A stretch of 64,000 bases of DNA from the NCBI RefSeq assembly GCF_026391055.1, contig NZ_JAPLET010000019.1, positions 186,001 through 250,000 on the forward strand. The letters are read 5' to 3'. The notes beneath the pieces are model-generated. The model saw only the letters and a program-made list of their open reading frames with translations. It made no database searches and was not told where the DNA came from. Below are positions 7,775-52,881 of the stretch, piece by piece. Each line of letters begins with the position of its first letter. The stretch's first letter is position 1. A program made the translations under genes and the position numbers. This DNA comes from Spirosoma sp. (GTDB lineage: Bacteria; Bacteroidota; Bacteroidia; Cytophagales; Spirosomataceae).

Positions 7775-7857
7775 CATTGCCTACTAACAGTTAAGTAAAT
7801 TTTGCGCTGAACTTCCTTAAACTAGAAGCTCGAATCGCAACAACCCAACAGCCCCGC

Positions 7858-8760: not shown

Positions 8761-8765
8761 CTTCT

Positions 8766-36314: not shown

Positions 36315-38567
36315 CTAAATCCGCTTTTCCGGGTCGGCCTTGAAAGGCTGATTGTACTGCCGTTTGCCCGTGGTTTTATACAACGCATTGGCCACCGCAC
36401 CAAATACCGGTGGGAAAGGCGGTTCGCCTAAGCCGGTTGGGTCGATGTCGTTTTCGACAAAGTGAACGTCGATCTGTTTTGGTGCTTCGTTATGGCGAAT
36501 GAGCCGGTAATTATGAAAATTGCTTTGCTCAGGTGCCCCGTTTTTATGCGTCAACGCTCCGTAAAACGCATTACCAATCCCGTCGACAACCGCACCCTGC
36601 ACCATGTTTTTGGCTGAATCGGGGTTTACCACGATACCGCAGTCGATGACACTGAATACCCGCTCCACGTACGGCTGACCATCGCGGGTCACCATATCAA
36701 CCACGTGAGCCGCGTAGGAGTTGTGGCAGAAATAAGCCGCCACGCCCCGATGGTACTTCTCGTTGCCTCCCTTGTTCCAGTTCGATTTATCCCGTACCAG
36801 GGTGAGTACTCCAGCGTATCGGTCGGGGTCATACTCGTTGTTTTTACCGACTGGATTTTCCTTTGCCCGTTTCAATAGCTCCAACCGCAACTCGATGGGG
36901 TCTTTTCCCATAGCCTCGGCCACTTCATCCAGGAATGATTGCTCGGCGGCTGCGTTGAAGTTGGAACGCGGTGCCCGGAACGCTCCAATCGTGATATTGG
37001 ACGGAATCTCCCAGCCCTCGGCCAGGTAATTGTCCACGGCTCCGGCCGGAAACCGGTTGGCATGTACCGGATGTTCGGGTATGCCGCCACCTTTGACATG
37101 GAAACCGATCAGGTTTTTATTGGCATCCAAAGCGGCCCGATACGTTGCCGTGTACATCGGGCGGTAAATGCCATAAGTCATATCATCTTCGCGGGTGTAG
37201 ATCAGTTTGATCGGCGCTTTGACTTTTTTCGAGATCAGAGCCGCTTCGGTCATGTAATGCGCATACGCCCGACGGCCAAAGCCGCCACCCATCCGCGTCA
37301 TCTGAATCTCGATCTTGTCGGCGGGAAGGTTAAGAACTTTTGATAAGGTGGGTTCTACCCAACCCGGTGCCTGTAGCGGTCCGACAAATACCGCTTTGTC
37401 ATCCGTGACATGGGCAAAGAAATTCATCGGCTCCATCGTATTATGGGCCAGAAACGGGGCATTGTAGGTACGTTCGATAATCTGAGCCGCATTCTTGAAC
37501 GCCGTTTCGGGGTCGCCGTCTTTCCGTAATAGCTGCGCTGGTTTTTTAGCCATCTCCTGCATTTTTTCGAGTTGGGCGCTTGTACTTTCGAGCCCACCCG
37601 GAATGGTGACCTCGCGTTTGCCGTCCCGTCCCGCCATCGTATCTTTGCTATCGCCGGTCGGCTCCCATTGGACAAGTAGCTTTTTGCGGGCATTCATGAC
37701 TTCCCAGGTCGATTTGCCCACCACAACCAGCAGATCGTTGAAGGTACGGGTATCGAAACCGCCCTGTACAAAACCGTCTTCGTATAATTTCAGGCTGAAA
37801 ACGTCTTTGATGCCCGGCATTTTCAGAGTTTGCGATGCATCGAACGATTTCAGTTTCATGCCAAAAGCCGGTGGGTGCTGAATCATGGCGATCAACATCC
37901 CGTCCGCCCGATAATCCAGCCCGAACAGCGGCTTGCCGGTAATTACCTTGAGACCCTCGACGTTTTTCTTCGAGTTTCGAACAATGGTAAAATCTTTCGG
38001 AGATTTTAGTTTCATGCCTTTGGGCACGGCAACAGTAGCGGCTTTGGTGGCCATTTCGCCATACTTGGCCGACTTCCCGCTCGAATGCGAAAGTACGCCT
38101 GCTTTGGCGGCTACCTCACCGACTGGCACATTCCACGTTTGGGCGGCTGCTTCGCACAGCATTTGGCGGGCGGCTGCACCGGCTTCGCGGAGGGGTTTCC
38201 AGTACATACGCACCGAATTACTGCCTCCCGTAAATTGGGGGCCTAATTTGGTATTGTCGTGCGGCCCCATTTCAACGACCACATTTTTCCAGTCGGCGTC
38301 CAGTTCTTCGGCCAGCATCATGGGCAAGGACGTCATCACATTCTGGCCAAATTCGGGGTTTGGGCACAGAAGTCTGATTACGTTGTCGGGGGTAATCTGA
38401 ATATAGCCGTTCAGCTCGACCCATTGACCGGGCACGTTCAGAGCCTCCAGTTTGTCGGCCGCTTTAGCGCTTGACAACCAGCTAACGCTGAGCATCATAC
38501 CGCCACCTGCGAGCATCGACGCTTTTAAAAAAGAACGCCTGTTATAAGTGGTTTTAGTCGTTTTCAT
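36315..38567 (-). CDS. Molybdopterin-binding subunit of an IorB-type aldehyde/isoquinoline oxidoreductase
   Basis: 750-residue large subunit of an exported xanthine-oxidase-family hydroxylase. A Tat signal (YNRRSFLKASMLAGGG) directs the folded molybdenum protein to the periplasm. Molybdopterin-binding motifs are present (GGGFGRRAY, GAFRAPRSNFNAAAEQSF), and the catalytic Glu is expected in GLGEPPFPPVFGAVANALY near the C-terminus. It acts with the small 2Fe-2S subunit encoded 85 bp upstream. No separate FAD subunit is present, which is normal for the IorAB type that passes electrons to a cytochrome. Likely substrates are aldehydes or N-heterocycles. Confidence 0.92.
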   Translation of the reverse strand: MKTTKTTYNRRSFLKASMLAGGGMMLSVSWLSSAKAADKLEALNVPGQWVELNGYIQITPDNVIRLLCPNPEFGQNVMTSLPMMLAEELDADWKNVVVEMGPHDNTKLGPQFTGGSNSVRMYWKPLREAGAAARQMLCEAAAQTWNVPVGEVAAKAGVLSHSSGKSAKYGEMATKAATVAVPKGMKLKSPKDFTIVRNSKKNVEGLKVITGKPLFGLDYRADGMLIAMIQHPPAFGMKLKSFDASQTLKMPGIKDVFSLKLYEDGFVQGGFDTRTFNDLLVVVGKSTWEVMNARKKLLVQWEPTGDSKDTMAGRDGKREVTIPGGLESTSAQLEKMQEMAKKPAQLLRKDGDPETAFKNAAQIIERTYNAPFLAHNTMEPMNFFAHVTDDKAVFVGPLQAPGWVEPTLSKVLNLPADKIEIQMTRMGGGFGRRAYAHYMTEAALISKKVKAPIKLIYTREDDMTYGIYRPMYTATYRAALDANKNLIGFHVKGGGIPEHPVHANRFPAGAVDNYLAEGWEIPSNITIGAFRAPRSNFNAAAEQSFLDEVAEAMGKDPIELRLELLKRAKENPVGKNNEYDPDRYAGVLTLVRDKSNWNKGGNEKYHRGVAAYFCHNSYAAHVVDMVTRDGQPYVERVFSVIDCGIVVNPDSAKNMVQGAVVDGIGNAFYGALTHKNGAPEQSNFHNYRLIRHNEAPKQIDVHFVENDIDPTGLGEPPFPPVFGAVANALYKTTGKRQYNQPFKADPEKRI

Positions 38568-38652
38568 GTCAGTAAGGGATAATGGAAAATGTAAAATGAG
38601 TAATGTAAAATGGCTGATAACCAGTAGTTAATTGTCCATTATTCATTATTCG

Positions 38653-39114
38653 CTATCCATTATTGGTTGAGGCTGATTTGATGGCTTCTTTGATACGCAG
38701 GTACGTACCACAACGACAAATGTTGCCACTCATGGCAGCATCGATGTCGGCATCGGTTGGTTTCGGATTGCTTTTCAGCAGAGAAGCCGCGCTCATAATC
38801 TGTCCCGCCTGGCAGTAGCCGCACTGCGCCACGTCGTGTTCCAGCCAGGCTTTCTGAACCGGGTGGTCGCCTTTGGCCGATAGCCCTTCGATGGTGGTGA
38901 TGGCTTCTTTGCCAACAGCTGATACGGGTAGTTGACAGGAGCGAACCGCCGTATCGCCGAGGTGAACGGTGCAGGCGCCACACTGTGCCATGCCACAACC
39001 ATATTTGGTACCAGGTAAATCCAGATGATCGCGGAGTACCCAAAGGATAGGTGTGGATGGGTCAACGTCCACTAGCCTGATTTTTCCGTTAATTTTTAAG
39101 TTATACTTTGCCAA
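38653..39114 (-). CDS. 2Fe-2S subunit of IorA-type oxidoreductase
   Basis: 153-residue small subunit with two 2Fe-2S clusters: a plant-ferredoxin-type N-terminal domain ([14 protein letters not shown] plus a later RSCQLP Cys) and the C-terminal helical domain ([10 protein letters not shown] and [11 protein letters not shown]). It transfers electrons from the molybdenum subunit encoded directly downstream. No signal peptide of its own, as expected if it is co-exported with the Tat partner. A motif shared with the AraC/aldo-keto-reductase region lies about 190-235 bp upstream. Confidence 0.93.
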
Positions 39115-39443: not shown

Positions 39444-40322
39444 TCAATGAATTTCAAAGAGAAGCGTCACTTCGCCCCCCAGTTCGATCTGGTCGCCATG
39501 TTGCAGCGGGTAACCCATACCGAGAATATCGGCGCGATCCAGGCTGCCGTCCGGGTGGAAAATCTTGGTTTTGTTACCACTGGCCGGAAGTCCGCCGGGG
39601 TCGGCCAGCAGCGAATATTGCCGTCGGGCTGCATCGTAGCGGAGGGTCGCGTGTGCCCGGCTGACGGCCCCGTTGCCCGCCCCCCGTTCGGCATCGTAGC
39701 CGGGATCATGGTCGTTCAATATAACAATGTCATTTGTTCGAACATGCCCCGAAGCCGTTTGGGTCGAATGCCCCCGGCCAATGCAGTAGCTGTTCTTTCG
39801 AGTAGGATCGAGCGAATAGGCATCCTGCTCCATCTGCCCTTTCACCGCAACAAGACGAGCCAGCAGGGGCGAGGTATTTGGTCTGGTCTTGTCAGGAATT
39901 AGCAGGCCCAGGTTACCTTCCCGGTATGTACAGTCTGGGAGCGCATCAGAATAAAATGTATAAGCCAAACGCCAGTTGGCGGGAAGCTGAATGTAATTGT
40001 CGGCTAGTTGCCGGGCAAGTTCACTTCGAAATTTACCCTGCTGACTGGCCCATAGGGCAACGTTGTACACATCCTCCTCCTCGGCATTCGAGCAGAGAAT
40101 ACACAGGTCGAGGGCCGAAGGGGCTGTTTCGGGCTCGTTTTGATACGGTCGTAATTTATCGATGATAAACCTTAGCAGGCGGTCGCGCTGCTGCCCGGCG
40201 GGGGGAAGTCCCTTCGAAACGGGCTTCGGGATTTCTGAAGCTGGCTCCGATGCGGGTTCCGATTTAACGGCTTGAGCGGGTGTAAACCCGAATAAGTTTT
40301 TGACGCTATCCAGCAGGCTCAT
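39444..40322 (-). CDS. FHA-domain protein, last gene of the cell-wall signalling cluster
   Basis: 292 residues. The C-terminal FHA domain (about 175-292) has the phospho-Thr-binding pattern: YCIGRG with a ...TNDIVI strand, GAVSRAHATLRY for the Ser/His contact motif, LLADPGG, NKTKIF, and LQHGDQIELGGEVTLLFEI. The N-terminal 160 residues hold a Pro/Ser/Glu-rich linker and a helical region (LRFIIDKLRPYQNEPETAPSALDLCIL) resembling no family I know. FHA proteins bind Thr-phosphorylated partners; the nearby kinases are the obvious source. It starts 59 bp after the SEDS-PBP gene and ends the run of minus-strand genes. Confidence 0.88.
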   Translation of the reverse strand: MSLLDSVKNLFGFTPAQAVKSEPASEPASEIPKPVSKGLPPAGQQRDRLLRFIIDKLRPYQNEPETAPSALDLCILCSNAEEEDVYNVALWASQQGKFRSELARQLADNYIQLPANWRLAYTFYSDALPDCTYREGNLGLLIPDKTRPNTSPLLARLVAVKGQMEQDAYSLDPTRKNSYCIGRGHSTQTASGHVRTNDIVILNDHDPGYDAERGAGNGAVSRAHATLRYDAARRQYSLLADPGGLPASGNKTKIFHPDGSLDRADILGMGYPLQHGDQIELGGEVTLLFEIH

Positions 40323-40381
40323 AGTTTTTCAGTGTAGTGGCATACCATCCATTTCCGTTTGAGGGAAACCAAAAGTAGCCG

Positions 40382-43300
40382 TTAAAAACTCCCTAAATAC
40401 CCCTGTTGTTTCAGGATTGGGGCCACAATGCTGTTGGCAAGCTGAACGGCTTCTGCCGATGATTCGCCTAATTCAATGCGAACACTAACCACCGTATGTG
40501 ACCGGCCATCGGGCGTTGGCGCGAAGAAAACATACCAGCCGTCATTCCGCCGAATGCCCTGTACGATGCGCTCCGGCGTACCGGTTTTACCTGCCACTCG
40601 CGCCACGCTGATTTTAGACCGGCCTTCCGACGGATTCGACTGGTCGATCATGAATGATTCCAATTGTTTCGCGTAGTCGGCTTGTTTGGCTACCGGCTGT
40701 CCACCTAATACGGGCTGGGGCTTTCCGGCCAGGTCCAGCACATACCGCGAGGGCTGTAGTATACCCTGATTGGCAATGGCTCCCGCCATACGTGCCAGAG
40801 CCGCCGGGGTGGATGTTAGCTGGCCCTGCCCCCAGGCTAAACCCGAAAACTCACTGCGGTATCGTCGGGGGTATTGGGCGCTGTTGTAGAGGTTCCGGCG
40901 AATGACGAACGATGAGTCGCGCCAGTGCTCGCGTATGGCGCTGCATTCGGGGTCGGTACGAGTGTCGGAGAAGGAGTAGCCCCCTACAAAGTCGATGTTC
41001 ATGCCCGTGGCCAGATAGAGATCGGCCAGTTGGTTGTCCAGCTTGTGGTCGTTGGCAGTGCGGATAAAATACACGTTACTCGAGCGGACAATGGCCTTCC
41101 GCATATCCACTGTTTCGTTACAGGGTTCAGATTCCCGCGTACCCCGTCGAATAATTTCCTCGCACGAGATCCGGTAACTAACATCCGAAGCCGATGAGCC
41201 TAGTTTATTGAATGCGGCCATAGCCGTCAATATTTTGGCCGTTGAACCGGGTGCCGTGGGGTAGGTCATGCCCAGGTCCCGCTCGGTTACAAGATACGGT
41301 AGTTTTTGCCGGTCCCGGTCCGACAGCAGCATGGCGTCGGGGGTTTGCAGATTGGGAAGCGGATGCACGGCCGAGGTGAGCACATCGCCCGAAGCGGCAT
41401 CCAGCACTACTACCGAGATACGCTTGTTCCGAAAACTGGATTTGGCCAGCGCATTCTGAATGGCCACCTGTAACTCGGCATTCACGCTGAGGTGAATATC
41501 GCGGTTTTTGGCTTTCCGTTCGGCTACTTCGCGGCTATCGAGTCCGGCGCGTAAAGCCGGGGCCAGTTCGCTGTAATCATAGACCGACAACGTTCGTGTT
41601 TGCTGTACCGACGGACTGAATCGGTCGGCCCGGAAATCGGTGGTGACCAGGTCTGTTTTACGGGGGCGGCTGTTGAAGCCTCGTAACTCGCTGAGGTGGG
41701 CAGCTTCGGCATAATACCCATTGCTCTGGCCCCAGAAGAGTTGCGTATTAAGATCGCCTACCCAGAAGAAAAGCTGGTTGCCAAATGGATAATACCGCTG
41801 TAGACGCTTCTTTGTCAGTCCCTCAACGACATCTCCTTTCAAGCCACTTTCCCGGAGCTTTTCGAGTTGCCGGGTCACAACATCCGGTGCGCTTGCCGCC
41901 AGAACGAGCCCGTTGCGGTCGTAAATGGTACCGGCAGCTATGGCTCGTGTGAGTCGTTCGATGCGGGGATTGTAGCTGTACACCGGGTCGCCGTTGCGCG
42001 TAATGACCCTGGCGGGCCGGATGATGTACTCACGACCCCGCCAACTGATGATCGGGAGTAAATGCCCAATCAGCACCACAACGCCCGCCAGGAATCCGAC
42101 GATACCGGCCATCAGCACGATGTCGTAATGTTTTTCGAGGTATTCGCGCTGTTCGGCCTGCCCCGGTCGATGGGCCACGCTGAAGACGGCACCCATTGCC
42201 GTGAGGTTGATAATGAGGGAAATTTTGCCATAGCTCAGAAATGGCACGCTGATTCCCGTGAGTGGCAATAAGCCAATTGAACCGCCCGCAATGATCAAAA
42301 ACTGTGTTCCGGTGGCGATGGCGATACCAGCAACCAGGAAAAAACTAAACGGCTGCCCCGCCCGGCGTGCGTGCAGGAACATTCGGTGGAGTAATATGCC
42401 AAAGAGCAGAAACACACACACGACACCCAAACCACCCAACTCTTCGCCTAAACTCGGCAGGATCATGTCGGTATGAGCGGCAGGAATGGAATTAGCAAAC
42501 GCCTTGCCCAGGCCCTGCCCCGACCAGCCTCCCGATGCCAGCGCCCAGTAGCCATGTGCCAGATGGTCGCCCCCGTACACATCGTTGTTCCAGGGATTGA
42601 GCCACATGGCTTTTCGATCGGCAAGGCGGTCGCCAACGGATGGTAACTTGTCGCCAAAGGCAAACATAGCCATCACCAGCAGCAGCAAGATAGGAGCCTC
42701 GGCCAGGAGAGCTGCCCAACCCAACCCGGTTTTCGATCGGGCATCACCTTTGACGAACAAGTATGCAACGACAGCGCCCAGACTAAGAAGGGTAGCGAGC
42801 CAGCCCGGCAAGAGCCACAACGTCAAGCCGTAGCCTACCCCCGTTGCCAGCGTTAGCGGGAGATTTCCGCGGGCAATGCTGTAGAAAAGAAGGAAGGTAA
42901 AGCAGACAACCAGCGCCGGTCCCATATCGCCCAGCAATAGGTACAGTAGCATGAGTAATCCGGCACCAGCCAATGCACCAAAGCTCACAGCAAACCGCCA
43001 CTGTAAATCGGGAAGTTGCCGAAGTTGCTGCTCGTTGGCCGCAAAGAAACCCGCAAAGAAGAGCAGGAGCAAGTATTTGGTTATTTCGCTGGGCTGGAAT
43101 GTGAGGCCAAGAAAAGACAAATTGACGCGTACGCCACTGCCTTCTGGTCCCGACCCTAGCAGCAGGGTAAACGCGGCCAGCCCAGCGGCCAGTACCAGCC
43201 ACGTCCAGCCCGAAAGCCTCACGGCGTTATGATTTCGGTACGAAAAAAGCCAGTCGTACTGCCAGGTAGCGTAGAAACGGCCAATGTTGAGTTGGGATAA

Positions 43301-44353
43301 AACGGTCATCCCTAGCAGGCCAAGTGCAATGCCCTGTACCGTTTGTCCAGCGTACAGCATGTCCTGCAAAGGGTCCTGAATGGCGAGTAGTGTCAGGACC
43401 GATAAGCCGGTCAGCAACATCAGAATGGGCAACAATAGCGGATCGGGCCGGAAACGGCGGATTGTCCAGAACAACTGTACGGCCCAGAAAGCCAGTAGAA
43501 ACCCGCCCACAATGATCCACAACTGCCGGATAAAGGTATCTGGGTTACGAACAGTAAGTGCATGGTCGGTTTTTAACTGGCTGTATACGGTCGACCCAAT
43601 CAGCCGGAGCTGATGCGCACGTGCGGTGAAGCGCACATCCTGATTGCCGCTGAGGTTTGATGCGCCTTTGCGGCTGCCGAACTCAAATCCAGGCTTCAAC
43701 GGTACAACACTATAGCCTGACCCCGCCTTCAAGCCGGTAAAGGTGAATTTTCCGTCGGCATCGGTGCGGGCGTAAATGTATCGGTCGGCCAGGGTATCTG
43801 GCTGGGCAGTGGCGGGGTGGCGTTTCAACTGAACCAGCACGCCCGGCATTGGTTCGTCGTCGTGGGTAACTTTTCCACTGAAAGCTGCCGAACCGTTGCC
43901 GGTGTTTACACTGGACGGGTAGGTTTTGGGGTTCGTTAGCTCCCGGTTGTACAATACGGAGTCGAATCCCATTTGCTGCCGGGATAGCCGAAGGCGGCTT
44001 TGAAAGTCGGCCCCGCCAATGCGGCTACGCCATTTTACAGGGGCTACTACCGAAAATTGACGCTTGTTTATAGCCCCCAGATTATCGAGTGTCTGGTTCT
44101 GCGCCAGTTTGGCAGGGAGCGAGTCGGCAACGAGGGTAACATCTTTCGGGTCTGCGTAATAATTACCAGTGGTCAGAAGCTGTTTAATAGCCGTCGATTT
44201 CAGGCCTGTTGTCAGGTTGAGTGCCTGCCCGTTGGCATACGCTTGTTTTGCCTGATCAAGGGCTGGCCGGAAGTTGGTGTACAGCCGATAGAACAGCAGC
44301 AACAACATGACCGATGCGATAGGCAAATACAAGCGTTCGGTAAGTGATTTCAT
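40382..44353 (-). CDS. SEDS glycosyltransferase - class B PBP fusion
   Basis: 1323-residue inner-membrane protein combining two normally separate peptidoglycan synthases. Order: TM helix about 10-28; periplasmic stretch with a carboxypeptidase-regulatory-like domain about 150-245 (FSGKVTHDDEPMPGVLVQLKR); SEDS core about 280-745 with GDMGPAL and the signature GGWSGQGLGKAF...AAHTDMILPSLGEELG, whose Asp629 is the expected catalytic residue; a further TM near 755-780; a PBP dimerisation/pedestal region about 790-985; and the transpeptidase with S1037-T-A-K1040, S1091-S-N1093 and K1256-T-G. It should both polymerise lipid II and crosslink it. It lies 31 bp after a Ser/Thr kinase gene. Confidence 0.93.
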   Translation of the reverse strand: MKSLTERLYLPIASVMLLLLFYRLYTNFRPALDQAKQAYANGQALNLTTGLKSTAIKQLLTTGNYYADPKDVTLVADSLPAKLAQNQTLDNLGAINKRQFSVVAPVKWRSRIGGADFQSRLRLSRQQMGFDSVLYNRELTNPKTYPSSVNTGNGSAAFSGKVTHDDEPMPGVLVQLKRHPATAQPDTLADRYIYARTDADGKFTFTGLKAGSGYSVVPLKPGFEFGSRKGASNLSGNQDVRFTARAHQLRLIGSTVYSQLKTDHALTVRNPDTFIRQLWIIVGGFLLAFWAVQLFWTIRRFRPDPLLLPILMLLTGLSVLTLLAIQDPLQDMLYAGQTVQGIALGLLGMTVLSQLNIGRFYATWQYDWLFSYRNHNAVRLSGWTWLVLAAGLAAFTLLLGSGPEGSGVRVNLSFLGLTFQPSEITKYLLLLFFAGFFAANEQQLRQLPDLQWRFAVSFGALAGAGLLMLLYLLLGDMGPALVVCFTFLLFYSIARGNLPLTLATGVGYGLTLWLLPGWLATLLSLGAVVAYLFVKGDARSKTGLGWAALLAEAPILLLLVMAMFAFGDKLPSVGDRLADRKAMWLNPWNNDVYGGDHLAHGYWALASGGWSGQGLGKAFANSIPAAHTDMILPSLGEELGGLGVVCVFLLFGILLHRMFLHARRAGQPFSFFLVAGIAIATGTQFLIIAGGSIGLLPLTGISVPFLSYGKISLIINLTAMGAVFSVAHRPGQAEQREYLEKHYDIVLMAGIVGFLAGVVVLIGHLLPIISWRGREYIIRPARVITRNGDPVYSYNPRIERLTRAIAAGTIYDRNGLVLAASAPDVVTRQLEKLRESGLKGDVVEGLTKKRLQRYYPFGNQLFFWVGDLNTQLFWGQSNGYYAEAAHLSELRGFNSRPRKTDLVTTDFRADRFSPSVQQTRTLSVYDYSELAPALRAGLDSREVAERKAKNRDIHLSVNAELQVAIQNALAKSSFRNKRISVVVLDAASGDVLTSAVHPLPNLQTPDAMLLSDRDRQKLPYLVTERDLGMTYPTAPGSTAKILTAMAAFNKLGSSASDVSYRISCEEIIRRGTRESEPCNETVDMRKAIVRSSNVYFIRTANDHKLDNQLADLYLATGMNIDFVGGYSFSDTRTDPECSAIREHWRDSSFVIRRNLYNSAQYPRRYRSEFSGLAWGQGQLTSTPAALARMAGAIANQGILQPSRYVLDLAGKPQPVLGGQPVAKQADYAKQLESFMIDQSNPSEGRSKISVARVAGKTGTPERIVQGIRRNDGWYVFFAPTPDGRSHTVVSVRIELGESSAEAVQLANSIVAPILKQQGYLGSF

Positions 44354-44384
44354 GCAGTAATGGTTAGTAGACAGGGGGGAGTAC

Positions 44385-45674
44385 CTACCGTATTGAGTCC
44401 TGAACGGCCGTCGAATCGGGCGTAGCCGTTGAGCCGCTATTGGGCGTTGCTGCCGGCGGTACTGGCGTGATTTCTACCGAATCTGTCGTTGTTTCTTCTT
44501 CTGATTCCGGCTCTGTTGTGGTTGCCGAGTCTCTCCGAGGTGCAAAATCTTCGGTTTTCAGCGAATCCCGGTCAAGGGCGGTCGAATCAACCAATGTTGA
44601 GGCTGGCGTCTCTTTGTCGCGTTCTTTATAGTAAATAGCAAAGCCGATAATTAACCCGGCTACCACAACGGCCAGCGCAATCAGCCAGGTGTTTGACTGG
44701 GCAGCAGGCTCATAGTCGGGAGTGGATTCGTAGGTTTCGGCTGGCTGCGCTACTGGTATGGGTGCGGCCATCGTCTGCGACCGGGGTATGGGTATGGGTG
44801 CCTGCCGAATACCGGATCGGTTAGCCTGTAGCAACTCAACGTTGGCCTGGCCGAGTAGTAACGCCAGCTCGGTAATCTCGCTCAGCCGTTGAGCCGGGTC
44901 TTTTACGAGTGTCCAGTCAATGAGGGTTTTCAGGCTTGGCGGCAGGTATTGGCCCGATGGCAGTACCAGAGCAGGTGGTTCTGTTCGCAGTACCTGCCCC
45001 ATAAAGGTGGCGATCCCGGCGCTGTCGGCCATTGAGAATGGTACTTTACCCATCAGGCATTCATAAAAAACGACGCCCAGCGAATAATAATCCGTGGCTA
45101 CATCTACCCCCCTGGGGTTGTCGAACTGCTCGGGCGAGGCATATTCATAGGTCATCAGCGACTGCCCCGTCATGGTTTGGGTTTGTTCCCGTAGTCGGGC
45201 TACGCCAAAATCGGTCAGTAAAAAATGCAGTTCACCACTGGGCAGGGGCCGGTACAGGATATTCTCCGGTTTTATGTCGCGGTGGATAATCCCCTGCGGG
45301 TGAATGGCGTGGAACGCTTCGGACATCTGCAAACCTAACCGAATGGTGGTGGCAACCGGTAACTGACCTTGTTCCTGAATGAGCGTCCGCAGGTTACCGC
45401 CTTCTACCCACTCCATCACAATAAACGGGAGGGGCATATCCAGTTGCACTTCTCGTACCCGCACAACATTAGGGTGACGGATACTGGTCATAATTTCGGA
45501 TTCGACCCGAAACCGACGAAGGGTTTCCGGGTCGGTATTCAGGGTAAAATGCTTGATGGCTACTAAATCGCCCGAGTCCAGATGCCGCGCTTTCAGTACG
45601 CGGGCATTGGATCGACCGAGTTCGCCTATGATCTCGTAACCCGGGAAATGGGTGTTGACGCTTACAGTTGGCAT
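44385..45674 (-). CDS. Membrane Ser/Thr protein kinase A
   Basis: 429 residues. Hanks-type kinase domain about 13-290 with Lys41 (VAIKHF), Glu58, catalytic Asp133 (IIHRDIKPEN) and Asp155 (TDFGVAR), followed by YEYASPEQF. The glycine-rich loop reads LGRSNARVLKA: only the first Gly of GxGxxG remains. A TM helix (about 328-350, LIALAVVVAGLIIGFAIYY) leads to an acidic, Thr/Ser/Pro-rich extracytoplasmic tail of about 75 residues without recognisable PASTA repeats. It starts 10 bp after its paralogue and precedes the SEDS-PBP gene by 31 bp, so wall-synthesis enzymes or the FHA proteins are likely targets. Confidence 0.93.
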   Translation of the reverse strand: MPTVSVNTHFPGYEIIGELGRSNARVLKARHLDSGDLVAIKHFTLNTDPETLRRFRVESEIMTSIRHPNVVRVREVQLDMPLPFIVMEWVEGGNLRTLIQEQGQLPVATTIRLGLQMSEAFHAIHPQGIIHRDIKPENILYRPLPSGELHFLLTDFGVARLREQTQTMTGQSLMTYEYASPEQFDNPRGVDVATDYYSLGVVFYECLMGKVPFSMADSAGIATFMGQVLRTEPPALVLPSGQYLPPSLKTLIDWTLVKDPAQRLSEITELALLLGQANVELLQANRSGIRQAPIPIPRSQTMAAPIPVAQPAETYESTPDYEPAAQSNTWLIALAVVVAGLIIGFAIYYKERDKETPASTLVDSTALDRDSLKTEDFAPRRDSATTTEPESEEETTTDSVEITPVPPAATPNSGSTATPDSTAVQDSIR

Positions 45675-45684
45675 TGGTATTTTA

Positions 45685-47238
45685 TTAAAACAACTCAGAT
45701 TGGGATGAAGTCAGGGAATCGGTAGCCGGAGGAATATCCGGCGACTCGTAACTCGTAACTTTACAGGATACGCGCGTTCCTCGGTCACTGTCCGGAGCCG
45801 ACTTGGATGGTGATGAATTTGGCTCCACCAGATTGAAATACACTTTTTCGCTTTTATACAGACCACCGTTCTCCTTGTAATAGTTCACCTGAACTACTAC
45901 GTAAGTAAACGATAATCGGGTTGGATTAGTCAATTGAACCTGCAAATGTTTGATGCCGCCAAACAAGCCGACCTTAAAATCAGTTGCTTTTGCCCGAACG
46001 CTTCTCACCGCCCTAAGCGCTTCCTTACGAAGTTGCTCTTGCCGACGAGCTTCCTCTTCCTGTTGTCTGATTCGGGCGGCAGCGGTGTCTAAAGTGGTTG
46101 TTGCGGCAGGATTTCGGGTGGTAGCTGGTTCGGCCTGAAAGGAGTTGCTTTCCGGCTTAGGGTCGCGTTTCGCCGTGATGTAATACACTCCCGCCAGGAT
46201 CAGAACCACTAAGGCAGCGAAGGCCAGAATCCGGCTGTTACCAATCTTCTTTGAAGGGCTAGGCTCCGGTCGGGGAGAAACATGGGCTGTCTCTAGAGAG
46301 GGCGCTGACGGGCCGGGTTTATTCAAGACGTCCGGTTTGGAAGCCGCTACAACTGGGGGTGCTGCGGCAGACCGGTTCGACCGGCCAGCTTCCAGATAAG
46401 CCAGTTCGGCCTGTTTGAGTAGCCAGGTCAACTCATCCGGGTCATTCAGCCGGTCGGCGGGGTTCTTCCTGAGCAGACTCTCCAGTACGGGCGTAAACAG
46501 ACCCAGCGACTGGCTATTCGCCGAGACGGTCAACGGGGGTGGGGCATCGGTGAGTACCTTGTTCATGAAGGTAACTATACCTGAATGGTCGCTCATGACA
46601 AACGGGACTTTACCCGTCAGGCCTTCGTACAGTACCACGCCCAGCGAGTAGTAATCCGTGGCGGTGTTGACGCCTTTGGGGTTGTTAAACTGCTCTGGAG
46701 AAGCATATTCGTAGGTCATTAGTGACTGCCCCGTGAGCGTGTTTGACTGTTCGTGCAAACGAGCCACGCCAAAATCAGTCAGCAGAAAATGCAGTTCACC
46801 GCTGGGCAGGGGCCGGTAAAGAATGTTATCCGGTTTTATGTCACGGTGGATAATTCCCTTCGGATGAATGGCCCTGAACGCGCTGGCCATTTGCAGTCCG
46901 AGCCGAATAGTGGTTGGGATGTCGAGGTGCCCCTGTGCTTTGAGAAGGTCGCAGACGCTGCCGCCTTCGATCAGCTCCATAACAATAAAAGGCAGCTCAG
47001 CCTCCAACTGCACCTCCCGGACTTTCACAATATTTGGGTGGGCAATGCTGGTCATAATGGCCGATTCCCGCTGAAATCGACGGAGGGTTTCGGCATCGGT
47101 ATTCAGTGCGAAGTGTTTGATAGCGACCAACTCGCCCGTATCCAGGTGACGTGCCTTGAGAATTCGGGCATTGCTGCGGCCCAGTTCACTCAAAATTTCG
47201 TAGCCTGGAAACTGGGTGTTAAAGCGCACGGTAGTCAT
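45685..47238 (-). CDS. Membrane Ser/Thr protein kinase B
   Basis: 517 residues, paralogue of the downstream kinase: Lys41, Glu58, Asp133 (IIHRDIKPDN) and Asp155 (TDFGVAR) fall at identical positions, and the glycine loop is degenerate in the same way (LGRSNARILKA). A TM helix lies near 338-358 (ILAFAALVVLILAGVYYIT). The extracytoplasmic part starts with a coiled-coil stretch RIRQQEEEARRQEQLRKEA and continues as a beta-rich domain ending in a Ser-rich tail; it does not resemble kinase A's tail, so the two may sense different inputs. Its ATG shares one base with the phosphatase stop codon (TGATG), giving translational coupling. Confidence 0.93.
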   Translation of the reverse strand: MTTVRFNTQFPGYEILSELGRSNARILKARHLDTGELVAIKHFALNTDAETLRRFQRESAIMTSIAHPNIVKVREVQLEAELPFIVMELIEGGSVCDLLKAQGHLDIPTTIRLGLQMASAFRAIHPKGIIHRDIKPDNILYRPLPSGELHFLLTDFGVARLHEQSNTLTGQSLMTYEYASPEQFNNPKGVNTATDYYSLGVVLYEGLTGKVPFVMSDHSGIVTFMNKVLTDAPPPLTVSANSQSLGLFTPVLESLLRKNPADRLNDPDELTWLLKQAELAYLEAGRSNRSAAAPPVVAASKPDVLNKPGPSAPSLETAHVSPRPEPSPSKKIGNSRILAFAALVVLILAGVYYITAKRDPKPESNSFQAEPATTRNPAATTTLDTAAARIRQQEEEARRQEQLRKEALRAVRSVRAKATDFKVGLFGGIKHLQVQLTNPTRLSFTYVVVQVNYYKENGGLYKSEKVYFNLVEPNSSPSKSAPDSDRGTRVSCKVTSYESPDIPPATDSLTSSQSELF

Positions 47239-48686
47239 CAGGGACGCAGGGGTTTAGTCGGAGCCGGAACGGGAATCGATTGCTTCTGTACAGAAACCGT
47301 AATGATGGTGTTCAGGCAGGTATCCTGCCGGATAGCCGCCCGAACGGGTACACCGACTTGCTTGAAATATACGTTTTTTAGTTGAAGGATCGCGTTGCCA
47401 TCTGTCTCAATACCGGTATCGAAACCGCTGATAACCAGATTGTCGAGGCTGATAGCACCGTGCCGGCTCACGCGCATGGCTACCGTGGCGTTGGCTGTAT
47501 CGGCAGGTATAAGAACGGTCAGCCGGTTACTTCCCAACACCGCCACCAATGAATCGGTGAGCAAGAGCGGTTGGTTGATGCGAAGTGTGTCATCGGTCAG
47601 TACCAGCCGATGATCAGTGCTTCGGTAGGCCGCCTGCACCAGGGAGTCGATTTTAGGGGTGACTGGCACGGTCAAGTCAACCGTATCGGCCGTTAATTCG
47701 GCAGTGTTCAGGCTATCGGAGGGGATGAAGGTGGTTTTCGATGGCCAGGATTGATACCAGTAAATGCCACCCGCCAAACACAGTAGGACAATGATCATAG
47801 CAAGCCAACGGCCCGTCGACGACTGCCTGACCGGCTCTGGTTTTACGGGTTCTGCAGCCGGAGATACAGTTGGTTTATCGGCTCTGGCCGGGTGAATGGC
47901 AGCGCTCGCTTCGGCAGCCGCGGGCTCATTCGCCGGTGTGGTGTTGCGGGCCAGTACAACGGTAATGTTATCGTTGCCGCCCTGCTGATTGGCTACCCGG
48001 ATTAATTCGGATAATTGCTTGTCTAACGAAACGTTTTGATTCAGGACCGCTTTTATCTGAGCCTGAGTAATCATATCCGTAAGGCCGTCGCTGCACAATA
48101 ACAGTTGATCGCCCGGTAGAAACGTTGTTTCACCCGATTCCAGAAAATCAGGATCATCGACCCGGTGCGTAGCCAAACCCACTTCGCGCAGAATTTCGTT
48201 ACGGCGGGGGTGAGCCATCGCTTCGGCTTCGGTCAATTCATTAGCGTCTTCCCGAACGCCCACCAGGGAGTGGTCATGCGTGAGTTTGGTCAGCTCACCC
48301 CGCCGGTAGCGATACAGCCGCGTATCGCCCACGTGAGCATAGTACAGTTTATTGGTACTGGTATCAGCCAGAGCGGCTGTTAGTACGCAGCACATCTGCC
48401 CCAGTTTAAGGTCTTGCTGGCGTTGTTCGTTGATCTGGTTATTAGCAAACACAACCGCTTCGCGTAGCATGGACAAAGGGTCTCCATTGGGTGTTGCCAT
48501 GTAGCGCTCAATGGCTTCCCGGGCAATGGCGGCAGCCCGGTCGCCCCCGGCATAACCGCCCACACCATCGATTACGGCCAGTAATGCGTTCGACTCTGAC
48601 CAGAGTGGTGTGCAGATAAAGGTGTCTTGATTGTCCTTTCTGCGTTGGCCAACATCCGTTAAGCCGGCGATTAGTAAGTCATTCAT
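47238..48686 (-). CDS. Membrane-anchored PP2C-type Ser/Thr phosphatase
   Basis: 482 residues. PP2C domain about 5-245 with the metal-binding motifs DNQD, VIDGVGGYAGG, HVGDTRLYRYR, LLLCSDGLTDM and GGNDNITVVL all intact. A Pro/Ala/Glu linker, TM helix (about 292-312, LAMIIVLLCLAGGIYWY) and a beta-rich extracytoplasmic domain of about 165 residues follow; it may form a beta-helix-like fold (repeated LxLxD-type strands). Such phosphatases reverse Hanks-kinase phosphorylation. Coupled by overlap to kinase B. The overall plan matches the actinobacterial PstP. Confidence 0.92.
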   Translation of the reverse strand: MNDLLIAGLTDVGQRRKDNQDTFICTPLWSESNALLAVIDGVGGYAGGDRAAAIAREAIERYMATPNGDPLSMLREAVVFANNQINEQRQQDLKLGQMCCVLTAALADTSTNKLYYAHVGDTRLYRYRRGELTKLTHDHSLVGVREDANELTEAEAMAHPRRNEILREVGLATHRVDDPDFLESGETTFLPGDQLLLCSDGLTDMITQAQIKAVLNQNVSLDKQLSELIRVANQQGGNDNITVVLARNTTPANEPAAAEASAAIHPARADKPTVSPAAEPVKPEPVRQSSTGRWLAMIIVLLCLAGGIYWYQSWPSKTTFIPSDSLNTAELTADTVDLTVPVTPKIDSLVQAAYRSTDHRLVLTDDTLRINQPLLLTDSLVAVLGSNRLTVLIPADTANATVAMRVSRHGAISLDNLVISGFDTGIETDGNAILQLKNVYFKQVGVPVRAAIRQDTCLNTIITVSVQKQSIPVPAPTKPLRP

Positions 48687-48757
48687 TCGAAACGAAAAAA
48701 GAGTCAGATATGTAATTCAGTGCTACTACAACTCTCCCAATACCGGTTGGTTTGGTT

Positions 48758-48841
48758 TTAACGGGGTAAGTCCTGAAAATGCCTGAACACCAGATAAAGG
48801 ACGAACACAAACAGGAGTAGGACAAGCAGAAAATCGATCAT
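48758..48841 (-). CDS. 27-residue single-TM micropeptide
   Basis: 28-codon ORF beginning 4 bp after the stop of the FHA-like gene and ending 71 bp before the phosphatase gene, all on the minus strand. The product starts MIDF, has a 16-residue run of Leu/Val/Phe/Tyr and ends in RHFQDLPR, i.e. a single TM helix with a charged tail. Its tight intercistronic position and fully hydrophobic composition argue it is translated. It could stabilise or regulate one of the membrane partners; function unknown. Confidence 0.6.
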   Translation of the reverse strand: MIDFLLVLLLFVFVLYLVFRHFQDLPR

Positions 48842-48845
48842 GGCG

Positions 48846-49859
48846 TCAGAAGTTGCGCTGGAAATGAAGGGTTACCATGCTGTTGAGCAGAATCTGGGCT
48901 TTATCGGGTAAGTCAAGCCATTGAGGATTAGCCGGTTCGCTTCGGGCGATAAGATGCTCGTTGACCCGGGTTTCGTTGCGGCTGAAAGAGGCAATCTGAA
49001 ACGAGTGTGTCGAGTCGTTATACCGGATTCGGGCATGTGGGTTAGACACGTAGGCCGATTCAAGCAGCAGGTAGTTCGGGAAGTGTTGATTGTCGGGTTC
49101 TTTACGGGCAACCACAATTTCCCGATCACGCATTAGATAGGTGTCTTCCTTATTCAGCTCGGCAATGTAAAAGCTAATCTGCGCCAATCCCGCATCGATA
49201 CTACGGGGCAGAGGAGCGGCTGCTGGGGCACCCCGCAATGGTACGCTGACCGGTGCCTGCGCGGCAATAGTTACCGGGCTGTCGAAATTGAATTTCACCA
49301 CAAAGGCGCCGGGCTCACGGAAATCAATATGCTGAAAAGCATGAATATCGACGTCAACTTTTTCGTACCGGTTTGTTTGTTTTACCCGGCGGGTTACATT
49401 CACTTTTTCGGCAGCGACACCGGCAGGGCCATTACCGGGCAGAATACCCGTTAATGCGCCAATAACTTTCAACTCGGTAGGGCCAACCGGCTCGCCGTTG
49501 AATTCCTGACCGGCACCAAACTTGAAAAACCAGCTCGATGCCACCGGCGACACCCGGCCATACTGACTCTTGTGCGAATCAATAATGGCTTTAAATGCCT
49601 CAACCGCTTCGTTAACCACGACAGGAAAGGCGTTTTGCCGCTCTTCATAGATGTCGGGGTGCATAATAATCAGGAAATGAGCATTGAACAGTAAACTTGT
49701 TCCGAAAGACTCCCGGTGCAATGAGTCTTCGAAGCTGGCGATTAGTTCGTCCAGAATGCGTTTGTTAGTAACGGTAGATGTGGAACGGGTATCGGTTTGG
49801 CTGGGTGGTATTATCAGGCTACTCAATTTACCGAGCCAACCACCGGGCTTATTTGCCAT
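48846..49859 (-). CDS. FHA-like protein with extra N-terminal domain, first gene of cluster
   Basis: 337 residues. The C-terminal part (about 235-337) shows an FHA pattern: REIVVARKEP, YVSNPHARIRYNDSTHSFQIASFSRNETRVNEHLI, and WLDLPDKAQILLNSMVTLHFQ. The canonical Ser-x-x-His contact is present as SNPHA. The N-terminal 150 residues (ILDELIASFEDSLHRESFG...HFLIIMHPDIYEERQNAFPVVVNEAVEAFKAII) are a separate alpha/beta domain that recalls the N-terminal domain of actinobacterial FhaA, though I cannot prove homology. No membrane segment. First of the seven-gene run; 255 bp separate it from the GH20 gene. Confidence 0.78.
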   Translation of the reverse strand: MANKPGGWLGKLSSLIIPPSQTDTRSTSTVTNKRILDELIASFEDSLHRESFGTSLLFNAHFLIIMHPDIYEERQNAFPVVVNEAVEAFKAIIDSHKSQYGRVSPVASSWFFKFGAGQEFNGEPVGPTELKVIGALTGILPGNGPAGVAAEKVNVTRRVKQTNRYEKVDVDIHAFQHIDFREPGAFVVKFNFDSPVTIAAQAPVSVPLRGAPAAAPLPRSIDAGLAQISFYIAELNKEDTYLMRDREIVVARKEPDNQHFPNYLLLESAYVSNPHARIRYNDSTHSFQIASFSRNETRVNEHLIARSEPANPQWLDLPDKAQILLNSMVTLHFQRNF

Positions 49860-50113: not shown

Positions 50114-52672
50114 TTACTTAGTTATAGTTACCGTTTGCCCAGCGCGGCCAGCGGCAGTGAAGGCTTTAAATTTAACGTTACCGGTTTGGGTAACCGGTTC
50201 ACTGTAAACTTCGCTTTTGGCGGTAGGCTCCGTTCCGTCGGTGGTGTAGCGAATAATCAGCCCAGGAAACTGGACGTTAGCGGATACTTTGCCATTACTA
50301 ACTTTAGCACCCACAGCAGGTATCCGGTATTGATACCCTCCGGCAAAAACATCCAGGCGCGGAAGCTCCCGTTTCCCGACAACATGTACGAACTCAGACC
50401 AGGCCTGGTTGTAAAGCTGATCACTTTTTGCATCGTCTTTCTCACGCGCCCAGGCAGGATCTTTAGCCCAGGCTCGTTCGGCAACGGCGAGCAATTTTGG
50501 CAAAAGTTTGTATTCGAATTGCTGGGGGGTTCGGTTTGTTTCGGACCAGAGGGGGGCCTCGATACCGACCAGATTTGCCTTCCCGGCTTCGGTGACAGCT
50601 TCCCGGCTTTTAATCATGGAGGGAGCAATGCGTTTTCGGGTGAAGTCGTCTTTCAGATTTCTCAGGTAATTGTAGGGAATAAACGAAAAGGGTTTGTCAG
50701 TATCGACATATCCGCCCCAGTACTGGCCTGGCTCTTCCGAAGAGGGGTTGTAGGCGAGGTCAAGATACATATGGGTCACGCCGGTCAGAATGACTTTATA
50801 TCCGGCGTTGGCCATTCGATAGGCAAGGTCTTCCGCCCCGGAACCCGGACTGTTTTTCCAGACGTTGACCCGGAAGTTTTCGGAGGCAAAAGCCTGGTTT
50901 GGTACCCAGGTGACTTTGCCATTTTGAGTAACCTTTTTCAAGCCAATTTCCTCCCAGCCTGACAAAAACAGACCGCGACTTTTTACTATCTGGTTGATTT
51001 TCCCGAAATAGTAATACCATAAATCGTCGGTCGTTTTTACGGCAGGATTGCCCGCCATCAGCTTCTGCACAGCAGGCGATTTCTGCCAGACGCCTTCCGG
51101 AACTTCATCGCCACCAAAATGGATGGTTTTCAGTGGAGCATCTGCTTCTTTATACATAACCCGCAAATCGTCGACTACTCGCTCCATAAACGTATATGTT
51201 GATGGTAACGACACATTGATAACGTTGTCGTTCCAGCCCTGTACCGACCGATAGACCGATTTATCGGCCACATCTCGCAATAAGTAGCGCTCGGCCTCGG
51301 CCTTGTTTCCTGCCTTCAGTAGTTTATCATAGCGAGCATCCATCGCTTTTATGGCAGCTCGGGCATGTCCCGGCGATTCTATTTCCGGAATTACGTCAAT
51401 ATGCCGGTCACGAGCATATTTCAGAATTTCTATGAAATCGGCTTTACTATAGAAACCGGTTCCTGATGTATTGCTGGTCGACGGGCCGGAGCCATAGGAG
51501 GGAATCAGGTTCTTCTGCTCGTCGGTTGTATGGGCCCGTTTGGCACCAACTTCAGTAAGTTCTGGTAAAGAGGGCATCTCGACCCGCCAACCTTCGTCTT
51601 CACTAAAGTGGAAATGAAAGGTGTTCAGTTTGTACAGGGCCATGACGTCCAGCACTTTAAGGATTTCGGCTTTAGGCTGGAAGTTTCGGGCTATGTCTAC
51701 CATCAAGGCTCGGTAGGGAAAGCGGGGTGCATCGGATACCACAATCCCCGGAATGGTAATAGACCCTGTTTTGCCAATGAGAGCAGCCGCTGGTATCAGC
51801 GTTTGTAGTGACTGAATGCCGTAAAACATACCCGCCCGCGTTGTTGCTGACAGGCGAATGCCGTCCTGATTAACCGTTAATTCATACGCTTCGGCACCGA
51901 GCCCGGCTTTCTTCTGAAGAAAGATGGCTTTTCCAGAACCCTGCTCCTGAAGAACTAGCTTAGTACCTAAAATCGGCGTTAAAGCAGTAGCCAGAAACTC
52001 GGCTTCGGGTCTGAATTCTTTTTCGGCGGCAATGACCATCTGATCGGTTAGGACAAAAGGTGTTCCCTGCTTCTGATACGAAACGGGCGTTGGAAACACA
52101 GTTGGTAACCGATCCTCTGGAATAGTCTGTATCTTCTGGTTTTCTGTGAATAGCGTCTCGGCCAGGCTACGATCCGATTTCTCGAATATTTTACCGGAAT
52201 TGATAGCTACTTCGACTGGGAAAGCCTGCTCCGGGTTTTTGTCGAGAACGAGGTAGAACCCAACCGGGAAATCGGTCTTATTGCGGATCTTTCCTGCTAA
52301 AACCTCCAGTCTGGTTGATTGTCCGGGAGGGAGCGCTTTGAAAGCAGGACCGGGGCTTATGTAATGCAAATCGCCATTGAACAGCGTTACTTTCGCTATT
52401 GTAGAATCGAAAGTAGCGGGCGCTCCGCCATTGAAAAATAACTTCCAACCTGTTACGGGGAGTTCTTCATCACCTGTATTCGTCAGGGTTAATACCGATC
52501 GTGAGCGAGCCTGGTTTTGGTAGTTATTGTCAATTAGTTCCAGCGAAATTTTCAGCCGTTTGGGCGCTTCATCAGCAACTGCAGATTCGGATTTATCTGA
52601 ATCGGAAGACTTCGAGCAACTGAAAAGCAGGGATATACATAAAAGCAGGAGAGAGAGGGAACGCGTTCTCAT
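50114..52672 (-). CDS. GH20 beta-N-acetylhexosaminidase lipoprotein
   Basis: 852 residues from ATG 52672. A lipoprotein signal (SLLLLCISLLFSCSKS) leads to a chitobiase-type N-terminal carbohydrate-binding domain (about 30-170), GH20b (about 190-330), the GH20 TIM barrel (about 335-690; catalytic pair Asp522-Glu523 in HFGGDEVPEGVW) and a C-terminal chitobiase/hexosaminidase-like domain (IIRYTTDGTEPTAKS). It releases terminal GlcNAc/GalNAc from chitin-like or peptidoglycan-related oligosaccharides at the cell surface. The frame extends 25 codons upstream, but the lipoprotein signal fixes the start. Monocistronic. Confidence 0.94.
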   Translation of the reverse strand: MRTRSLSLLLLCISLLFSCSKSSDSDKSESAVADEAPKRLKISLELIDNNYQNQARSRSVLTLTNTGDEELPVTGWKLFFNGGAPATFDSTIAKVTLFNGDLHYISPGPAFKALPPGQSTRLEVLAGKIRNKTDFPVGFYLVLDKNPEQAFPVEVAINSGKIFEKSDRSLAETLFTENQKIQTIPEDRLPTVFPTPVSYQKQGTPFVLTDQMVIAAEKEFRPEAEFLATALTPILGTKLVLQEQGSGKAIFLQKKAGLGAEAYELTVNQDGIRLSATTRAGMFYGIQSLQTLIPAAALIGKTGSITIPGIVVSDAPRFPYRALMVDIARNFQPKAEILKVLDVMALYKLNTFHFHFSEDEGWRVEMPSLPELTEVGAKRAHTTDEQKNLIPSYGSGPSTSNTSGTGFYSKADFIEILKYARDRHIDVIPEIESPGHARAAIKAMDARYDKLLKAGNKAEAERYLLRDVADKSVYRSVQGWNDNVINVSLPSTYTFMERVVDDLRVMYKEADAPLKTIHFGGDEVPEGVWQKSPAVQKLMAGNPAVKTTDDLWYYYFGKINQIVKSRGLFLSGWEEIGLKKVTQNGKVTWVPNQAFASENFRVNVWKNSPGSGAEDLAYRMANAGYKVILTGVTHMYLDLAYNPSSEEPGQYWGGYVDTDKPFSFIPYNYLRNLKDDFTRKRIAPSMIKSREAVTEAGKANLVGIEAPLWSETNRTPQQFEYKLLPKLLAVAERAWAKDPAWAREKDDAKSDQLYNQAWSEFVHVVGKRELPRLDVFAGGYQYRIPAVGAKVSNGKVSANVQFPGLIIRYTTDGTEPTAKSEVYSEPVTQTGNVKFKAFTAAGRAGQTVTITK

Positions 52673-52881
52673 AATGTCAGGGTCGGTTGCAATATAACAG
52701 ATACAAAGGCGGGTAGAGTTATGTACCAGTGATCTTGCACCATACATAACTCTACCCGTGGAAAGGCAAGTTAATCAAAAAATCAACGTACTTTCTTTAT
52801 TTCCTGCATAGCAGGCAACTGGTGCCCGAACTTTAGCAGCGGATTTGATTCTTCTGCCACTCGTAGTGGTGTAACAGGAAG

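Follow-up and report, generated by a model that had tools for sequence, protein, structure and literature searches.

Does a Bacteroidota genome harbor its own branch of the locus through which wall synthesis is phospho-controlled in Actinobacteria, or has the same list of parts been assembled there independently? The question is raised by a window of 64,000 nt (positions 186,001 to 250,000 of contig NZ_JAPLET010000019.1 from Spirosoma sp.), the whole stretch of DNA analysed here, in which seven genes encode two FHA proteins (FHA1 and FHA2), a micropeptide, a PP2C phosphatase, two Hanks-type Ser/Thr kinases (STK1 and STK2) and a fusion of a SEDS (shape, elongation, division and sporulation) polymerase with a class B penicillin-binding protein (PBP). 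A prediction made from the letters of the sequence (hereafter the original prediction) had likened this cluster to the actinobacterial fha-pstP-rodA-pbpA-pknAB locus. Our analysis leads us to propose, with a probability of about two in three, that the cluster encodes an accessory, third SEDS-PBP synthase with a phospho-control circuit of its own, and that at least its SEDS part and, by way of a chain of comparisons, its FhaA-type protein are homologous to those of the actinobacterial fhaA-pstP-rodA-pbpA-pkn locus. The shared SEDS clade, the chain that ties FHA1 to FhaA_N and the shared core gene order favor an ancient common origin followed by remodelling over convergent assembly, so that the cluster would be a Bacteroidota branch of the actinobacterial locus with locally remodelled kinases. 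To our knowledge, phospho-control of wall synthesis via this locus has been studied mainly in Actinobacteria and Firmicutes.

Conservation of the gene cluster and of its order

The seven open reading frames (ORFs) lie on one strand and are as tightly spaced as originally described, with gaps, counted along transcription from FHA1 to FHA2, of 4, 71, -1, 10, 31 and 59 nt (coordinates in Table 1). The SEDS (141.4 bits), transpeptidase (84), PP2C_2 (53.5) and both Pkinase domains (146.2 in STK1, 158.7 in STK2) of the window all score above the Pfam cut-offs. Among named genome contigs, 207 relatives of the fusion were detected, and the best 80 were taken (some from the same genomes as the family set described below); they come from Spirosoma, Larkinella, Fibrisoma, Fibrella, Rudanella, Arsenicibacter, Niastella, Flavihumibacter, Pedobacter, Mucilaginibacter and other genera. 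Twelve of the 80 were classed as truncated (less than 6.5 kb upstream or less than 2 kb downstream of the fusion). FHA1, PP2C, kinase, fusion and FHA2 are all present in 65 of the 68 untruncated loci, the misses being L055, L071 and L073, and in the 69 complete loci (these 65 plus four truncated ones) the genes are on one strand without exception. The gene set is thus preserved beyond chance, and the lack of co-conservation in relatives that the original prediction had named as its possible refutation was not observed. In the family set of 200 genomes (the window's own included), the fusion is present, full-length or nearly so, in 46 and FHA1 in 47; FHA1 accompanies the fusion in 46/46 genomes against 1/154 of the others, figures which, given the kinship among the genomes, are to be read as support and not as a probability. 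In the fusion-less genome G119, FHA1 is located ~1.1 kb from the contig start, on the side where the rest of the module would lie. Flavobacterium sp. SUN052 (L071) has a fusion 63% identical to that of the window and an FHA2 gene ~8 kb off; the remaining module genes were not found within 10 kb on either side of its fusion.

The order of the window, FHA1-PP2C-STK(-STK)-fusion-FHA2, is found in 37 of the 69 complete loci and in one frameshifted copy, and in L046 there are ~3.5 kb between the kinases and the fusion. Another 31 complete loci, mainly from Pedobacter and Mucilaginibacter, exhibit the order FHA1-PP2C-fusion-FHA2 with the kinase or kinases outside. FHA1-PP2C-SEDS-PBP without insertion also occurs in the deep relative L143 and in L144, where PP2C, SEDS and PBP form one protein. 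In five actinobacterial loci (Actinomyces oris, Tsukamurella, Nocardia, Nonomuraea and Arthrobacter, the SEDS of the last being split into two frames in its record) we found the order FhaA-FhaB-PP2C-SEDS-PBP-PknA-PknB; two Nonomuraea regions, picked by PP2C and by kinase, were discarded as not representing the locus, and the correct one was found separately. The succession fhaA, pstP, rodA, pbpA on one strand is therefore common to both, with two kinases inserted before the synthase in the window type, and a small FhaB gene between fhaA and pstP is missing from the window, where that gap holds only the micropeptide. The 'rearranged order' of the original prediction holds for the kinases and for FHA2, but not for the FHA1-PP2C-SEDS-PBP core, which is uninserted in the 31 loci mentioned above.

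The fused synthase

Both domains and both active sites reside in one ORF, as expected of a natural SEDS-PBP fusion. An alignment of 14 fusions, in which the others are 41-78% identical to that of the window, reveals the invariant HTD motif (627-629) in the SEDS half and invariant S1037/K1040, S1091/N1093 and K1256/G1258 in the PBP half; T1257 is replaced by S in 1/14 (KSG in place of KTG). By our own assignment D629 corresponds to D262 of E. coli RodA, whose D262A variant is reported to block polymerisation (PMC6207328). The carboxypeptidase-regulatory-like domain scores below the cut-off in the window and above it in L140 and L143. In L144 (genome G378, a single contig) an ORF of 1384 aa at 7762-11916 comprises PP2C, then SEDS, then PBP, with the five PP2C motifs, the SEDS HTD/HSD motif, GSTxK and KTGT all present, and sits between FHA1 with a hydrophobic micro-ORF on one side and FHA2 on the other. 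This predicted PP2C-SEDS-PBP protein is the strongest hint that the phosphatase may work at the synthase.

The genome of the window keeps separate RodA-PBP2-type and FtsW-FtsI-type genes besides the fusion. Given two canonical SEDS-PBP pairs and a patchy distribution, which shows the module to be dispensable in the phylum, the fused enzyme might produce a specialised or stress-induced wall layer, or serve mainly as a scaffold, rather than act in general growth. We consider this unlikely, though it is the best surviving of the alternatives; it is a sub-case that overlaps with the proposed accessory synthase, so that our confidences in the two need not sum to one, and its extreme form, a pure scaffold, is disfavored by the active-site residues retained in both halves.

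Origin of the SEDS half

The SEDS tree splits 24 rows from 18 others with support of 100/99.9. The 24 comprise 18 fusions, four SEDS proteins of the actinobacterial locus, one from Monoglobus and one from Embleya, whose genomic neighborhood was left unexamined. By this tree the window SEDS belongs to the SEDS clade of the actinobacterial locus. Approximately unbiased (AU) topology tests, for which the groups were named only after the first tree had been viewed, rejected constraints that place the fusion SEDS with five Bacteroidota FtsW (AU 0.0020), with five Bacteroidota RodA (AU 0.0019) or with all FtsW-type rows (AU 0.0047), and thereby reject the sampled Bacteroidota RodA or FtsW as its source. 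On a profile of the fusion SEDS, the Monoglobus protein scores 138.5 bits and those of the actinobacterial locus 119-136 bits (one broken copy lower), compared to 107 for E. coli FtsW and 61-88 for Bacteroidota RodA/FtsW.

The FHA proteins

The FHA domains of the window fall below the Pfam cut-off of 20.7 (FHA1 20.6, FHA2 15.8), although FHA1 scored 23.2 when the genome was searched; with E values of up to 1 accepted, the domain is matched by 43/43 FHA2 and 20/42 FHA1 alignment members (window included), and the GR, SRxH and N residues are invariant across the 43 FHA2 rows. Comparison of the FHA1 and FHA2 profiles with PDB sequences gave only weak FHA-domain matches (best E 0.22 and 0.99). The relationship to FhaA emerges from the deep relatives: FHA1 of L140 matches FhaA_N with E 4.9e-6 (27.4 bits, cut-off 25), and those of L143 (E 0.0011) and L144 (E 0.0052) match it below the cut-off. 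Profile comparison links window-type FHA1 with five deep FHA1 proteins (1.2e-16 for the entire protein with its FHA domain; 1.7e-5 for the N-terminus), and the deep N-terminus with the N-termini of five actinobacterial FhaA proteins (2.4e-4). The same method did not link the deep FHA1 N-terminus to the N-terminus of FHA2 (0.055) or of the fusion (0.24), nor the FHA2 N-terminus to FhaA_N (0.053). Because the chain leads from window-type FHA1 via deep FHA1 to FhaA_N and actinobacterial FhaA, FHA1 is most likely an FhaA homolog. FHA2 of the deep relatives L143 (11435-12805) and L144 (11979-13253) possesses an N-terminal HEPN_Swt1 domain.

Kinases, phosphatase and their outer domains

Both window kinases exhibit the VAIK, HRD and DFG motifs and agree to 67% in the kinase domain. 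In the module kinases of L099, L100, L108, L125 and L048, HRD is replaced by HGD with the catalytic Asp, Lys and DFG kept; HGD is the variant of the Sphingobacteriaceae-type kinases aligned. The kinase tree unites 18 of 21 module kinases in one clade (98/92), and the other three (L049_STKb, L146_STKup and, on a long branch, L142_STK) fall beside other kinases of the window's own genome. STK1 and STK2 belong to a seven-row clade (100/100) together with single kinases of Arsenicibacter, Niastella and Pollutibacter, from which we conclude that their doubling is local. An equation of the two with PknA and PknB had to be abandoned, as the tree indicates a lineage-specific duplication. The claim that the kinases lack PASTA domains holds: none is reported by Pfam for either window kinase or for eight kinases of relatives (for L144, among the best 25 of 63 families), and the window kinases score 194.7 and 186.5 bits with the NCBIfam PASTA-kinase model, whose cut-off is 450; in this respect no counterpart of the actinobacterial PASTA kinase PknB was found. 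The window PP2C scores 195.4 bits with NCBIfam NF033484 (Stp1/IreP; cut-off 230) and has five of five metal-site motifs, which are present in 13/13 module PP2Cs checked; the 13 module members form one clade of the PP2C tree and actinobacterial PP2Cs another.

The outer parts of the kinases vary by lineage, from Sel1 repeats in Arsenicibacter to a WD40 propeller in L144, and, judged by eye, the kinases of L108 and L048 seem to end in an SH3-like part and that of Niastella to contain a region resembling a jelly roll; Pfam returned no match for the outer kinase region in L108 and L078. The outer part of the PP2C resembles beta-helix repeats by eye, with no Pfam match there. Such exchangeable outer domains on a kinase-phosphatase pair fit an envelope-sensing role, which we suppose the pair may have. 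The WD40-propeller kinase of L144 is encoded ~4 kb upstream of the triple-fusion ORF.

Weighing the alternatives

Several observations weigh against the proposed homology and linkage. The module kinases are not placed as sisters of PknA or PknB and have no PASTA domains. FhaA_N is not matched in Pfam by the window FHA1 alone, and the direct comparison of FHA1 and FhaA_N profiles gives only 0.018 (one of nine pairs tried). Two Bacillota plasmid SEDS score 126.9-128.6 bits on the fusion-SEDS profile, within the actinobacterial range, although in the tree they fall outside the clade of fusions and locus SEDS. FHA1 is ~79 kb from the fusion on the same contig in L055 (genome G140) and on another contig in L073 (genome G056), and the related deep loci L140, L141 and L151 revealed no kinase or PP2C in the ~20 kb fetched. 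Finally, the PBP tree does not join the PBP half of the fusion to PbpA of the locus. Transpeptidase-only tests reject neither a union with the locus PBPs (AU 0.15) nor one with PBP2 (AU 0.238), and a longer alignment gives AU 0.037 for the fusion with Bacteroidota PBP2. An earlier constraint of the fusion with the locus PBPs was rejected (p 5e-5), but it was set without a Streptomyces PBP nested in that group, which the transpeptidase-only test included; the tree for the latter was built without one short PBP row. Since the two AU values favor neither origin decisively, the PBP half was dropped as a proof of common origin. What stands of the resemblance originally claimed is the SEDS clade, the FHA1-FhaA_N chain and the core order; the kinase pair does not correspond to PknA and PknB, and the PBP half gives no clear signal either way.

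Could the same parts list have been built from Bacteroidota's own RodA/FtsW, PBP, kinase and FHA genes? A separate clade of PASTA-free kinases, containing most of those in the module, and the PBP2 link that the tree still allows would agree with such convergent assembly, but the rejection of sampled Bacteroidota FtsW and RodA as the SEDS origin (AU ~0.002), FhaA_N in a deep FHA1 relative and the common FHA-PP2C-SEDS-PBP order render it quite improbable. The original prediction had left the choice between ancient transfer and convergence; an ancient common origin appears to hold for the SEDS part and, by the chain, for the FhaA part, with convergence less favored.

More improbable still is a recent lateral transfer from an actinobacterium with subsequent fusion, suggested by the patchy spread in a phylum survey (of 392 genomes, the window's own among them, 15 match at E 1e-60, representing 8 of 173 genera) and by the mobility of the module within the phylum. 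In Spirosoma oryzicola the whole module is carried by a 137-kb plasmid (L006, NZ_CP089545.1). Genome G136, from the genus of the window, has two modules, L047 and L048, and the latter groups with Sphingobacteriaceae-type copies concordantly in four trees (SEDS, PBP, kinase and PP2C), the pattern to be expected of a module that is transferred whole. All 18 sampled fusions, however, form one clade on a long stem, whose first splits set apart the four rows that belong to other classes of the phylum (a grouping weak in the SEDS tree, 73/23). The least probable explanation is that the genes are mere neighbors, the kinases and PP2C acting on other targets: the kinase position does vary among lineages, and the three deep loci devoid of a nearby kinase or PP2C keep FHA1-micropeptide-fusion-FHA2, but co-conservation over many genera, the PP2C-SEDS-PBP protein and transfer of the module as a unit speak for a functional link.

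The micropeptide

The least expected part of the cluster is the micropeptide. FHA1 is followed by a hydrophobic micro-ORF of 22-33 aa in 67 of the 72 loci examined, that of the window among them. On re-inspection of 16 loci it was seen in ten (L006, L048, L049, L050, L146, L140, L141, L151, L143 and L144), and the six without it are the five earlier misses and L037, from the same genome as L085. Two clear tail types, HF..LPR and HF.DIK, can be distinguished; the HF motif is missing in L049, L050, L146 and the deep loci, where kinship is indicated by position and character only. Under a stricter rule, the micro-ORF is present in 61/62 FHA1-PP2C gaps longer than 60 nt, compared to 0/62 on the reverse strand, 1/75 in other module gaps and 3/1240 in shuffles. 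For 31 distinct 27-aa forms, picked for the HF motif and the LPR end, the ratio of nonsynonymous to synonymous polymorphism (pN/pS) is 0.33 at a high pS (0.74), and codon position 2 is the least variable (0.09 vs 0.33 and 0.41); the micropeptide is under purifying selection. It is absent from three Pedobacter loci and one of Flavihumibacter, where the FHA1-PP2C gap is only 0-13 nt, and was not found in the Arsenicibacter locus. The Pedobacter loci L100, L106 and L112 represent a natural deletion of the micropeptide with FHA1, PP2C, kinase, fusion and FHA2 kept; the possibility that it has become part of PP2C in the Pedobacter loci lacking it was considered and rejected, as PP2C has no such extension there. 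On the S. oryzicola plasmid the micropeptide is present but not among the features listed for the record, whose table describes itself as incomplete. A single helix of PBP2 is reported to stimulate RodA (PMC10449877), which makes a one-helix regulator of SEDS plausible, and by this analogy the micropeptide may be one.

Relation to known systems

Compared to the actinobacterial fhaA-fhaB-pstP-rodA-pbpA-pknA-pknB locus, the window cluster likewise begins with an FhaA-type FHA gene and has PP2C, SEDS before PBP, kinases and a SEDS of the same clade. It differs in the fused SEDS-PBP with an additional N-terminal part, the conserved micropeptide, the PASTA-free, independently duplicated kinases, and an FHA2 that follows the synthase and has 292 aa, against 158 aa of FhaB in Actinomyces oris. 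The clostridial trio of Monoglobus (L193) also has an FHA gene directly before SEDS and PBP, and its SEDS is of the same clade, but it is without fusion, kinase or phosphatase; a PASTA kinase and a PP2C are encoded beside rlmN and rsgA on another record of that strain. Natural single-ORF SEDS-PBP fusions are reported to exist, with the Rhodococcus RHA1 genome cited (PMC10449877), and engineered E. coli RodA-PBP2 fusions to be active (PMC6207328, PMC10449877). SEDS precedes PBP in one polypeptide in these as well, but within the set of rows compared (Rhodococcus not being among them) the Bacteroidota fusion stands in a separate clade, and it has the additional N-terminal part and the FHA-kinase-phosphatase context. 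The module kinases share with the PASTA kinases PknB/PrkC/Stk1 the Hanks kinase domain, one helix and a C-terminal part beyond it, and differ by the lack of PASTA.

The pstP cluster has been described as conserved in Actinobacteria, and pknB-fhaA linkage as occurring in a subset of Firmicutes (PMC6554272); the word 'bacteroidetes' is absent from the main text of that article. In Streptomyces, pknB and rodA mutations reportedly suppress the loss of DivIVA (PMC13432765), and RagB has been presented as a regulator of RodA (PMC12457691). In the open-licence literature, judged mostly from titles and the openings of abstracts, we found nothing fitting a Bacteroidota version of the locus.

Locus layout and flanking genes

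Table 1. Genes of the cluster, with positions in the window
Feature	Position	Strand	Description
FHA1	48846..49859	minus	337 aa; N-terminal domain tied via comparison chain to FhaA_N (DUF3662); C-terminal FHA domain
Micropeptide	48758..48841	minus	27 aa; predicted single-helix membrane peptide; tail HF..LPR common to window-type relatives
PP2C Ser/Thr phosphatase	47238..48686	minus	Stp1/IreP-like; one hydrophobic helix ~290-313, then ~170 aa
STK1, Hanks-type kinase	45685..47238	minus	One helix ~331-358; C-terminal part presumed extracytoplasmic; PASTA not found
STK2, Hanks-type kinase	44385..45674	minus	One helix ~324-351; short low-complexity tail; PASTA not found; close paralog of STK1
SEDS-PBP fusion	40382..44353	minus	1323 aa; N-terminal helix, carboxypeptidase-regulatory-like stretch, SEDS polymerase, class B PBP
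FHA2	39444..40322	minus	292 aa; uncharacterised N-terminal part; C-terminal FHA domain

The module is flanked in the window by a GH20 hexosaminidase gene (50114-52747) and, at 36315-39114, by a molybdopterin oxidoreductase gene with a partner; the oxidoreductase has a weak twin-arginine translocation (TAT) signal, and the partner resembles a 2Fe-2S subunit by eye. A scan for promoters and terminators was uninformative (14 promoter-like sites vs 8.6 expected, 17 terminator-like vs 12.9 expected). Elsewhere in the same genome, contigs C18 (~192-208 kb) and C7 (~153-160 kb) contain further neighborhoods with FHA, PP2C-like and kinase genes, among them a kinase ORF of ~1777 aa.

A model and its implications

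Phospho-control of the synthase, which we infer from the genes present, from the PP2C fusion and by analogy with the known locus, could operate as follows. Through outer domains that can be exchanged, the membrane kinases would read the envelope and place phosphates on Thr residues, both their own and those of the synthase complex. By binding this phospho-Thr, FHA1 and FHA2 would recruit the fused synthase or switch it. The membrane PP2C would reset the phospho-state, and the one-helix micropeptide, lying against the helices of SEDS, would serve as an additional regulatory subunit. We also put forward, tentatively and with somewhat less than even confidence, that the FHA-linked SEDS-PBP represents a third ancient wall system, governed by Thr phosphorylation and existing beside the elongasome and the divisome, of Bacteroidota, Actinobacteria and Clostridia, in which Bacteroidota would have gained an intramembrane one-helix micropeptide regulating SEDS and one lineage would have fused the phosphatase to the polymerase.

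If the proposed accessory synthase is real, it would be a Gram-negative branch of the locus in soil and water bacteria, and, being accessory rather than general, one whose wiring can be dissected by deletions. In the fused synthase the pairing of SEDS and PBP is fixed, the PP2C-SEDS-PBP protein suggests phosphatase action at the polymerase itself, and the micropeptide may be an example of a SEDS regulator of minimal size.

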